Both the position numbers and the translations under genes were made by a program. Positions 19,655 through 38,827 of a DNA stretch of 40,516 nt are shown here, piece by piece (within the stretch, counting starts at the first letter, position 1; the number at the start of each line of letters is the position of its first letter). This stretch comes from a virus: positions 1-40,516 of the IMG/VR virus record IMGVR_UViG_3300038441_001922; one strand, 5' to 3'. A model generated the notes under the pieces. That model was not told the DNA's origin. It saw only the letters and a program-made list of their open reading frames with translations, and did not search any database.

Positions 19655-20347
19655 TCAGGCGGCCCTCGTCTTGCGCCGGGTTGTAGACACAGGAAACGGG
19701 GTGACATTCGAGGCGGATGGCCCGCCTCCGAGGCCGGGCACATCCTGCGGGTGGGGGAGCACGTAGACGCGCTTGCGGGTGAAGGTCTGCTCCGCCCCCT
19801 TCTCGCCGATGTGGTGCCCACTCGAACCGAAGTTGGAGTAGGGCTTGTCGCCGCCGCACAGCTTGCGCAGCGCGCAACCGACACCGCGCGCGCTTCCCCA
19901 GGTGATGTGCACCCATCCCCGATCGATGCAGAGACGGGCATACTCCTCCTGCATGGTCCTGGAGGTGATCCGGTCGCCTGGACGGCAGCCGTCACGGAAC
20001 AGGAGCGCGAGCAGCTCTGCCGCGTGCGCGCGTGGGCTTGCGGCCTCCCCGACGATCAGCTGCTCGCGCCGGCTTGGCACGGCAGCAGCCCGCCTCCGTG
20101 CCGGCGATTTCGACCCCGCGCGGCGCCGAGGCGGAGTCGGCGCGGATCCGGAGTCGCACTGGAGCGGAGTCGGATGGGAGTCGGTTGCGCTTTGGCGCGC
20201 CGCCGGGGCCGCCTCAATTGCGTCCAGGGCGTGGTCTATGGCGGTGTCGAGCCGGATGGCCTCGATCACCTGGGAGATGGGGGGAGAGGCCGGTGTGCGC
20301 TTGGGAGTGCCACGGATGGCGCTGCGGACTGAATCAATGAGCGACAT
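19655..20347 (-). CDS. Possible winged-helix DNA-binding protein, 230 aa
   Basis: The N-terminal half (1-100) is Pro/Arg-rich and probably disordered. From about 110 the sequence becomes ordered: HAAELLALLFRDGCRPGDRI, TSRTMQEEYARLCIDRGWV, HITWGSARGVGCALRKLCGG and a strand pair ending TFTRKRVYVLP. This helix/helix/strand order is compatible with a winged helix. It is the first gene of a leftward group beginning 340 bases from the tRNA-Met gene. Function unknown. Confidence 0.6.
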   Translation of the reverse strand: MSLIDSVRSAIRGTPKRTPASPPISQVIEAIRLDTAIDHALDAIEAAPAARQSATDSHPTPLQCDSGSAPTPPRRRAGSKSPARRRAAAVPSRREQLIVGEAASPRAHAAELLALLFRDGCRPGDRITSRTMQEEYARLCIDRGWVHITWGSARGVGCALRKLCGGDKPYSNFGSSGHHIGEKGAEQTFTRKRVYVLPHPQDVPGLGGGPSASNVTPFPVSTTRRKTRAA

Positions 20348-20687: not shown

Positions 20688-20764
20688 TGGTTGCGGGGGT
20701 TGGATTCGAACCAACGACCTCCAGCTTATGAGGCTGGCGAGCTACCGGGCTGCTCCACCCCGCA
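20688..20764 (-). tRNA. tRNA-Met (CAT), initiator-type body
   Basis: A 77-nt tRNA with CCA encoded at 20688-20690. The anticodon loop is CTCATAA (anticodon CAT). The D arm, GAGC-AGCCCGGTA-GCTC, has the A11-U24 pair and loop typical of initiator tRNAs. Two identity features differ: position 1 is U facing A72 (a weak pair, not the usual C-A mismatch), and the anticodon stem is CCAGC/GCTGG, so of the usual three G-C pairs (29-31 with 39-41) only 30-40 is G-C in that orientation. It may still start translation, or it may have shifted towards elongation. Encoded by the phage on the early-left strand. Confidence 0.9.
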
Positions 20765-32989: not shown

Positions 32990-33288
32990 CCCGCAAGCGC
33001 GAAATCGAGCGGCCCTACACCCCGGCCTTGGTCTCGGCAGAGACCTTGGCCTACCTGCTCGACTGCTCGCGCTCCACCGTGGACGACTACGTGGATAAGG
33101 GCTACCTGCCTAAGCCTATCGAGATCGGCGCTTTGAAGCGCTGGTGGTGGCAGGACGTGGAGGCCTTCATCCGCGGGTGGCCCGCCTCAAACCAGCCCCC
33201 TGCCAATGGAGCCGGCGCTGCGCTACCCTCAAAGGAGGAAGACCCATTCCTCCAGGGGGTAGCCCGTGTCGCGTCCTCGCATGCCTAA
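32986..33288 (+). CDS. Excisionase/AlpA-like helix-turn-helix protein
   Basis: The 100-aa product has ETLAYLLDCSRSTVDDYVDKGYLPKPIEI followed by ALKRWWWQDVEAFIRGW, the MerR/AlpA-like layout of phage excisionases (helix-turn-helix, wing, then WxxxDVxxFI). It overlaps the integrase gene by 23 bases and is directly upstream, which is the usual xis-int order. Xis would bend DNA at attL/attR and direct excision. Confidence 0.85.
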   Translation: MTRKREIERPYTPALVSAETLAYLLDCSRSTVDDYVDKGYLPKPIEIGALKRWWWQDVEAFIRGWPASNQPPANGAGAALPSKEEDPFLQGVARVASSHA

Positions 33289-34468
33289 AGCGCCATTGCC
33301 CAAGCACGTGCACGTCACCAAGCCCAGGGGGAAGGAGTATTTCGCCTATCACCCGTGGCGCGGCACCAAGCGGGCCGGCAAGCGGGTTCCCCTTCCCGGC
33401 ATGCCGTACAAGCCCGACGGCACCCCCAACGAGGAATGGTGGGCGGCCTACCGGGAAGCAGCCGGCCAGCCCGCACCGGCGCCCAAGGCGGAGACATTCG
33501 GCGCGCTGATCGCAGCGCGCGAGAAAAGCGCGGAATGGGCCAAGCTCAGCGAGGGGACGCGGGTGGAGTGGGGCCGCCACCACAAGACCATCAACAAGGC
33601 CTGGGGTGGGCTGCTTGTGAAGAGCGTCGAGCCCAAGCACGTCATGGCGCTCCGCGATGCCTTCGCGGATATCCCGCCGGCCGCGCCGGAGCTGCGCGAG
33701 AAGGCGCTCGATGCCTATGCGAACCGGCCCGGCGCCGCCAACAACCTCCTGCGGGCGCTGTCGGCTCTGGTGAAATGGTCGATCCCCCGTGGGTGGCGGC
33801 CGGACAATCCCTGCCAGCACGTCCCGAAGTTCGAGGATGGCGAGGGCTATCTGCCCTGGCCGATGCGGGCAATCGAGCACTACAAGAAGCACGGCGAGCC
33901 CCACCTGTGGTGGGTGGCGGCGCATGCGCTCTACACCGGGCAACGGCAAGGCGACGTGCTCAACATGCGCAAGGCGGACGTGCGCGACGGCGAGATCCGC
34001 GTCAAGCAGGCCAAGACGAACAAGCCGCTCTGGATCCCGCTGCACCGAGACCTACGGTCTATACAAGACGAGATGCGCGAAACGCTCAAGGAGTGGAGCA
34101 AGAAGTGGGAGGTGCCGCGGGTCTCCAGTCACCTGCTCGTGAACAGCCGCGGCGCCGAATGGACGCAGGACGGCTTCCGGGCCTCCTGGCAGACGGAGAT
34201 GGGCCGGCGCATCTTCGGCCCGTTCCGCACCCACCGGCTGGTGTTCCACGGGCTGCGTAAGAGCGCGGTCGTGATGCTCCTGGAGGCAGGGTGCACCACG
34301 GCAGAGGTCGCCGCCATCACCGGGCAGAGCATGCAGATGGTCGAGCACTACGCAGAGAAGGTCAACCAGCGCCAGCTCGCGCGAGCGGCCATCCTGAAGT
34401 GGGAGCGGGCAGGCTCGGCGCCGGCCGCTGCGCCGGTGGAAACCGAGGCACGGAGCGCGAACAAGTAG
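33266..34468 (+). CDS. int: Tyrosine integrase
   Basis: The GTG at 33266 begins a 400-aa tyrosine recombinase. Catalytic residues can be read: Arg227 (ALYTGQRQGDVLNM), Lys250 region (VKQAKTNKPLWIPL), His328 and Arg331 (FHGLRKSA), and Tyr362 (MVEHYAEKV). The H/W position of the second box is Gln354 (ITGQSMQ), a variation seen in some phage integrases. The N-terminal 70 residues include an arm-binding-type segment (KEYFAYHPWRGTKRAGK). The attachment site lies directly downstream. Confidence 0.95.
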   Translation: MSRPRMPKAPLPKHVHVTKPRGKEYFAYHPWRGTKRAGKRVPLPGMPYKPDGTPNEEWWAAYREAAGQPAPAPKAETFGALIAAREKSAEWAKLSEGTRVEWGRHHKTINKAWGGLLVKSVEPKHVMALRDAFADIPPAAPELREKALDAYANRPGAANNLLRALSALVKWSIPRGWRPDNPCQHVPKFEDGEGYLPWPMRAIEHYKKHGEPHLWWVAAHALYTGQRQGDVLNMRKADVRDGEIRVKQAKTNKPLWIPLHRDLRSIQDEMRETLKEWSKKWEVPRVSSHLLVNSRGAEWTQDGFRASWQTEMGRRIFGPFRTHRLVFHGLRKSAVVMLLEAGCTTAEVAAITGQSMQMVEHYAEKVNQRQLARAAILKWERAGSAPAAAPVETEARSANK

Positions 34469-34477
34469 AGGCGGGGT

Positions 34478-34693
34478 TTGTAGACGCCCTTGTATACGCG
34501 GCGGGATTTGAAGAGGGTCCGGACGCGTAAGTCCTTGATAAAATTGGCGTCCCCGGCAGGATTCGAACCTGCGACCCTCAACTTAGAAGTTTGGCGCCAT
34601 TCAGCTAAGCTACTGTATATCAGAGAGAATATGTATACCAGGAAAGCCGGAATCGCCGTGAACAATCCCGATACATCGGGCGGGTTTGTATAC
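34478..34693. other. Probable attP region with repeated TTGTATAC motifs
   Basis: Five related octamers flank a tRNA-like core: TTGTAGAC (34478-34485), TTGTATAC (34490-34497), CTGTATAT (34613-34620), ATGTATAC (34631-34638) and TTGTATAC (34686-34693). The core (34545-34596) is the 3' half of tRNA-Arg. The layout fits arm-type integrase sites on both sides of a crossover site in a tRNA 3' end. The next gene downstream is at 34708, so nothing else occupies the region. Confidence 0.6.
34545..34619 (-). pseudogene. Degenerate tRNA-Arg(TCT), 3' half intact: attP core
   Basis: The T arm (GCAGG-TTCGAAT-CCTGC), the 3' acceptor strand CGGGGAC, discriminator G and CCA (34545-34547) are perfect. The anticodon loop is CTTCTAA (TCT). 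The 5' part is broken: the acceptor 5' strand (TATACAG) cannot pair with CGGGGAC, the D stem has three usable pairs and the anticodon stem has A31-G39. So this is not a working tRNA but the 3' portion that a phage keeps so that the host gene is restored on integration. Confidence 0.75.
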
Positions 34694-38540: not shown

Positions 38541-38617
38541 CGGGGTGTAGCTCAGCTTGGTGGAGCGGCTGGTTTGGGACCAGCAGGTCGGAGGTTCAAA
38601 TCCTCTCACCCCGACCA
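38541..38617 (+). tRNA. tRNA-Pro (TGG)
   Basis: A 77-nt cloverleaf with CCA encoded. The acceptor pairs CGGGGTG/CACCCCG; the anticodon stem is GCTGG/CCAGC around TTTGGGA, anticodon TGG. The T arm has GGAGG-TTCAAAT-CCTCT with a weak pair. It is the first of three tRNA genes read rightward. Confidence 0.9.
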
Positions 38618-38621
38618 GAAT

Positions 38622-38698
38622 GCCAACGTAGCTCAGTTGGTAGAGCAGCCGCCTTGTAAGCGGCAGGTCGGGGGTTCAAATCCGCCCCGTTGGCACCA
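38622..38698 (+). tRNA. tRNA-Thr (TGT) with bulge in the T stem
   Basis: The acceptor GCCAACG/CGTTGGC and anticodon arm GCCGC-CTTGTAA-GCGGC (anticodon TGT) are regular; CCA is at 38696-38698. The T stem pairs GGGGG with CCGCCC and so leaves one G bulged: one base more than a standard tRNA-Thr. The tRNA may work less well, or the base may be a sequencing error. Confidence 0.85.
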
Positions 38699-38751
38699 CC
38701 GCCTTTGCAAGCATTCCGATCAGTTTGCGCACTTGCGCAAGTTGATGGGTT

Positions 38752-38827
38752 GCGCTCGTAGCTCAGAGGATAGAGCATCCGGTTCCGAACCGGGAGGCCG
38801 CAGGTTCGACTCCTGCCGAGCGCGCCA
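38752..38827 (+). tRNA. tRNA-Arg (CCG)
   Basis: A 76-nt cloverleaf with acceptor GCGCTCG/CGAGCGC, anticodon loop TTCCGAA (anticodon CCG), a regular T arm (GCAGG-TTCGACT-CCTGC) and CCA at 38825-38827. The gene ends two bases before the holin-like gene's stop on the other strand. Confidence 0.9.

Follow-up and report, generated by a model that had tools for sequence, protein, structure and literature searches.

Initiator-like tRNA gene of the phage

We found that the window (the whole stretch of DNA analysed, a 40.5-kb IMG/VR record) carries a tRNA gene at positions 20688-20764 that probably encodes a working initiator tRNA, by which the phage would add to or replace the host initiator pool (probability of roughly 0.78, as judged by sequence comparison). 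This reading is supported by the structure of the gene, its persistence at the corresponding position in a relative, the conservation of initiator elements across phage copies and the presence of compensatory changes. We infer that the tRNA is transcribed, charged, formylated and used in initiation, to the benefit of the phage.

The gene was called by ARAGORN as tRNA-Met(cat) on the minus strand, and its score of 67.6 bits with the Rfam tRNA model, against a gathering score of 29, indicates that the match is not due to chance. The gene and its parts are:

20688..20764, minus strand: initiator-like tRNA-Met(CAU) gene with encoded CCA (ARAGORN; Rfam tRNA, 67.6 bits; syntenic copy with compensatory changes at locus L339)
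20764..20764, minus strand: position 1 (U), which pairs with A72 at 20692, a weak pair instead of C1.A72 (sequence)
20721..20737, minus strand: anticodon stem-loop CCAGC-CTCATAA-GCTGG, with A29-U41 for G29-C41, C31-G39 for G31-C39 and G30-C40 kept (sequence)
20688..20690, minus strand: encoded 3' CCA (sequence)

The tRNA reads 5'-TGCGGGG TG GAGC AGCCCGGTA GCTC G CCAGC CTCATAA GCTGG AGGTC GTTGG TTCGAAT CCAAC CCCCGCA A CCA-3', with U-A at 1-72, A-U at 11-24 and an anticodon stem of C27-G43, C28-G42, A29-U41, G30-C40 and C31-G39. Among the features of bacterial initiator tRNA-fMet, it has CAU within a CTCATAA loop together with A73 and CCA, and A11-U24 in the D stem. Initiators have no strong 1-72 pair, and here the two bases form a weak pair with no mismatch, a state that is also present in chromosomal initiators and common in phage copies. 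The three consecutive G-C pairs at 29-31/39-41 are absent (A-U, G-C, C-G), and so are the features of elongator tRNA-Met or tRNA-Ile2, an elongator-type D stem and usually a strong 1-72 pair (the D stem is GAGC/GCTC and the end pair U1-A72). Overall sequence, A11-U24, G2-C71, C3-G70, A73 and G30-C40 are shared with E. coli tRNA-fMet, which has a C1.A72 mismatch, G29-C41 and G31-C39 where the window has U1-A72, A29-U41 and C31-G39. Reading of the sequence, ARAGORN and Rfam thus bore out every structural statement of the original prediction (the D arm, A11-U24, U1-A72, and 30-40 as the sole G-C pair in the usual orientation), and its assignment of the tRNA as initiator-type and phage-borne is supported. 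In single-sequence folding the minimum energy structure was not a cloverleaf, as is frequent for a single unmodified tRNA sequence, and a promoter scan near the gene gave no convincing match.

Comparison with chromosomal initiators

To place the unusual pairs, chromosomal initiators of alphaproteobacteria were sampled, and A29-U41 was found to be their norm. A pattern with C1 or U1, 29-41 left free and 31-39 fixed as G-C was matched in 50/96 alphaproteobacterial genomes, with A29 in all matches. U1 initiators occurred in 4 genomes of this 96-genome draw, facing A72 in two and U72 in two (one of the four on a contig of <6 kb). These U1 initiators are at loci L354-L358, and U1 is present in all four matched copies of genomes G047 and G061. 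Given A29 in all chromosomal matches and U1 in four genomes, A29-U41 in the window is host-like and U1-A72 lies within the chromosomal range. The statement in the original prediction that rhizobial initiators vary the outer pairs was therefore right, and more strongly than it stated. U1-A72 as a phage hallmark is ruled out because U1 initiators exist in chromosomes.

Chromosomal tRNA-fMet of alphaproteobacteria resembles the window tRNA in length, the D arm with A11-U24, the CTCATAA loop, A29-U41, G30-C40 and, in a few genomes, U1 facing A72 or U72, whereas it has G31-C39 and mostly C1. Identity to the host initiator, which had been named as grounds for abandoning the prediction, was not found with the alphaproteobacterial initiators seen, which differ at 27-43, 31-39, elsewhere and mostly at position 1; the true host may differ from them. 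Since these chromosomal initiators also fail the three-G-C rule at 29-41, the rule is not a strict family definition, and since the window tRNA fails it too, our claim is that this tRNA is initiator-like and probably works as an initiator, not that it is a textbook member of the family.

Genomic context and relatives

The window contains replication, recombination, methyltransferase, integrase and endolysin genes, and the closest matches of its sliding-clamp-like protein are phage records from human faeces, followed by Rhizobium phages. No match to terminase, portal or capsid was found among the 20 ORFs scanned, so the window may be a fragment. Other features relevant here are:

33266-34468: tyrosine integrase gene
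34555-34613, minus strand: 3' half of a tRNA-like sequence, truncated, with UCU where the anticodon would be; it follows the integrase gene directly
38541-38827, plus strand: cluster of three tRNAs, Pro(TGG), Thr(TGT) and Arg(CCG)

At the DNA level, the relative L339 is 74.5% identical to the window across some 2 kb in the ERF/YqaJ region, and it has an initiator-like tRNA at the corresponding place and on the same strand. Its tRNA retains U1-A72, A11-U24 and G30-C40 and differs by U29-A41, G31-C39 and C5-G68, three two-sided compensatory changes, and the non-coding DNA flanking the tRNA has diverged between the two. Two-sided changes were present at 12/21 pairs in a 10-sequence alignment of such tRNAs. 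The synteny with L339 and the compensatory stem changes indicate, from comparison of the sequences, that selection has acted on the folded tRNA. A tRNA ~90% identical to that of the window, with the same stem, is present in L017, and the L017 stretch compared has no other DNA match to the window. No relatives were found through the gene downstream of the tRNA (19655-20347), and no near-identical phages were found in GenBank, where the match was to the tRNA alone; sequences resembling this tRNA occur in 542 GenBank phage records.

These features argue against the gene being a neutral passenger, acquired from a host and now decaying. Several identity elements do differ from the chromosomal norm, as such decay would predict, but the intact fold with CCA, the two-sided compensatory changes and the synteny in L339, whose flanking non-coding DNA has diverged, make this reading very improbable.

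Census of phage initiator-like tRNAs

A scan that constrained neither the acceptor stem nor any of the five anticodon-stem pairs yielded 78 readable initiator-like tRNAs in the first 80 loci listed. Because the search patterns themselves specified the D arm, some of the D loop and, for the main sample, the anticodon loop, conservation of these elements carries no weight as evidence. Twenty of the 78 lay <=350 bases from the locus end (14 of these with C1.A72) and resemble host copies bordering prophages; the split into internal and edge copies is only a proxy for phage and host, loci were taken as ordered in the file, and the copies are related by descent. Within the 58 internal tRNAs, the 1-72 states were U-A 16, C.A 10, A.A 8, U.U 7, C.U 6, G.A 4, U.C 3, A.C 2, A-U 1 and G-C 1, or by class 40 mismatched, 17 weak and 1 strong (G-C). 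U1-A72, which the original prediction had treated as an oddity, is therefore the commonest state among the phage-internal copies sampled (16/58), besides its presence in some chromosomes.

Strong 1-72 pairs (G-C or C-G) were found in 1/58 internal initiator-like tRNAs versus 362/533 other tRNAs in the loci (Fisher 8e-25, with copies not independent by descent), and G30-C40 in 58/58 versus 386/533. At 31-39, by comparison, 46 of the 58 had G-C and 8 had C-G. When sequences from all scans were thinned to <90% identity, the remaining 135 had 89 mismatched, 42 weak and 4 strong 1-72 ends. Because a weak or mismatched 1-72 and G30-C40 were kept though left free in the search, initiator elements are retained in the phage copies. 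The initiator-like tRNA was the sole tRNA in the fetched stretch in 112/187 loci with an internal copy, which suggests that it is frequently carried on its own account.

A recurrent tRNA starting with GTCGG was observed in Sinorhizobium/Rhizobium-type phages (L331:3998-4074, L332:1347-1422, also L151, L156, L163 and L191), with adjacent mismatches G1.A72 and U2.C71 at the acceptor end; owing to the latter it is without the G2-C71 formylation element. Some phage initiator-like tRNAs have a changed anticodon loop at 32, 37 or 38 (L336, from Clavibacter phage CN1A, and L340-L347). A tRNA-Pyl(cta) is annotated beside tRNA-Met in the Mycobacterium phage Erdmann record (L353:76-148).

Predicted function in initiation

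Formylation needs a weak 1-72 end, A73, G2-C71, C3-G70, G4-C69 and A11-U24, and pairs 29-41 and 30-40 are touched in the P site by residues G1338 and A1339 (PMC9976931, PMC4611024, PMC7949028). These contacts fit the invariance of 30-40 and would permit variation at 31-39, but not at 29-41. In E. coli, initiation was impaired when the three G-C pairs were swapped for an elongator sequence (PMC7949028). We propose that the window tRNA would be charged with methionine via its CAU anticodon, formylated via its weak acceptor end (U1-A72) together with A11-U24, G2-C71, C3-G70, G4-C69 and A73, and placed in the P site via the conserved G30-C40. It would add to or replace the host initiator pool during phage expression, with the flanking A-U and C-G pairs as tolerated variants of the three-G-C rule. 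A29-U41 would be as in alphaproteobacterial chromosomal initiators, and C31-G39 may have arisen in phages.

The possibility that the tRNA is instead an elongator tRNA-Met (or Ile2) derived from an initiator, as the original prediction also allowed, appears improbable. E. coli tRNA-Gln has a weak U1-A72 pair, so that U1-A72 alone is compatible with elongation and does not exclude this reading; the window tRNA has a pair there and no mismatch, and just one of its three G-C pairs keeps the usual orientation. However, phage copies, when set beside the other tRNAs in the loci, conserve a weak or mismatched 1-72 together with G30-C40 and vary at other stem pairs, A11-U24 and G2-C71/C3-G70/G4-C69 are of the initiator type, the nearest relative L339 retains U1-A72, and U1-A72 is also present in some chromosomal alphaproteobacterial initiators. 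The special role with a leaderless Cro-like message that the original prediction suggested found no support in this analysis.

Distribution of C31-G39 and possible escape from host tRNases

Of the stem features, only C31-G39 looks phage-specific. The combination of C31-G39 and an initiator D arm was present in at least 119 viral contigs and at 21 loci in 84,980 species genomes, according to exact-pattern scans, whose counts are lower bounds. In all 21 genomes with such a copy, the other initiator copies found have G31-C39 (with A29-U41 in the rhizobial ones), and the 2/385 alphaproteobacterial genomes with a C31-G39 copy both have G31-C39 copies as well. Ten of the cellular loci were checked by scanning two neighbour proteins per locus, and 8/10 had phage-type neighbours (terminase or portal, replicative helicase, primase, antiterminator, integrase, RNA ligase and peptidase, or phage-only families); of the other two, L126 adjoins a transposase family and the neighbours of L129 were without a match. 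The 1-72 state of 99 distinct C31-G39 tRNAs was mismatched in 60, weak in 35 and strong in 4.

A special case of the working-initiator reading, which answers why the gene is kept, is that host tRNases cut the anticodon stem-loop of host tRNA-fMet and that C31-G39 leaves the phage copy uncut; we regard this as possible, though on the unlikely side. Enteric VapC cuts tRNA-fMet between A38 and C39 (PMC4105405), and the window has G39 instead of the C39 of alphaproteobacterial initiators (the true host of the phage may differ), so that the flip alters the base just 3' of the bond cut by this initiator-specific enzyme and might, speculatively, blunt cleavage. Evasion of tRNases by anticodon-loop changes has been proposed for phage tRNAs (PMC10264068); in those tRNAs the change lies beside a known tRNase cut site, as it does in the window tRNA when alphaproteobacterial initiators are the reference, whereas here the change is a stem flip in an initiator. 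The contrast between viral and cellular counts of C31-G39, with G31-C39 in the other initiator copies of those cellular genomes, is also consistent with escape. An altered 38|39 step was seen in 17/63 phage-internal versus 1/17 edge copies, but this excess is not significant (Fisher p = 0.10), A38-C39 is kept in 46/63 internal and 16/17 edge copies, and phages whose hosts have VapC-LT2 are reported to do, in general, without a gene for the tRNA-fMet that it targets (PMC10264068). As most copies keep A38-C39, nuclease escape is ruled out as a general reason for carrying the gene. The wider proposal that phages repeatedly evolved a C31-G39 class with a weak or mismatched 1-72, still working as initiators, that escapes initiator-specific host tRNases or favours phage start sites is doubtful. 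Extra initiator supply is our first choice for why phages carry an initiator, with escape from host tRNases cutting at 38|39 as a possible reason for the C31-G39 subset.

A link to integration, with the gene as a host tRNA piece from the attachment site or as a complement to a tRNA destroyed by integration, is scarcely credible: the window does have a tyrosine integrase and tRNA-dependent lysogeny exists (PMC10865867), but the tRNA-like half at 34555-34613 probably marks attP, in a gene of the tRNA-Arg(UCU) type, the initiator-like gene is intact over its full length and >12 kb from it, its isotype is not that of the integration tRNA (as far as the inferred UCU attP tells, attB not having been seen), and the rhizobial prophages studied carry tRNA-fMet/Met yet are integrated in other tRNA genes, which are rebuilt (PMC12429752). 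Attachment-site origin was accordingly rejected, the probable attP being a different tRNA-like half beside the integrase.

Relation to known phages and significance

Single tRNA-fMet or tRNA-Met genes are frequent in S. meliloti prophages (PMC12429752, PMC11476347), and prophage NV1.1.1 likewise carries one (PMC10460002). Like the window tRNA, the tRNA-fMet/tRNA-Met(CAU) of Sinorhizobium phages phiLM21 and NV1.1.1 and Rhizobium phage RHph_TM3_3_3 is phage-borne; in such phages it is often the single tRNA, and the CCAGC/GCTGG stems of RHph_TM3_3_3 and NV1.1.1 are identical to that of the window. In contrast, phiLM21 has U-A/G-C/G-C at 29-31, the tRNAs of phiLM21 and RHph_TM3_3_3 start with GTCGG and have a G1.A72 mismatch, and the window differs from them both in genome arrangement and in the location of the tRNA. 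The initiator-like tRNA of phiLM21 and RHph_TM3_3_3 (L331, L332) has a NusG-like antiterminator gene on one side and the terminase genes on the other, and an antiterminator gene also adjoins the one at L138. In the open-access literature we found no paper on stem variants or C31-G39 of phage initiators, and the literature on unusual initiators and '3GC' yielded no phage work; the C31-G39 subclass was thus not found described, while phage and prophage tRNA-fMet genes had already been reported, notably in rhizobial prophages.

Phage-borne initiator copies are common, and that of the window belongs to a minority that breaks the rule of three G-C pairs in a way almost confined to phages. Phage initiator-like tRNAs are variable at the two outer pairs and in the bases at 1-72, while G30-C40 and the weakness of 1-72 are fixed. 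Such variants amount to a ready-made mutational record of the needs of initiation and are natural test cases for the requirements of a starter tRNA, and defined variants make it testable why phages carry an initiator tRNA of their own.
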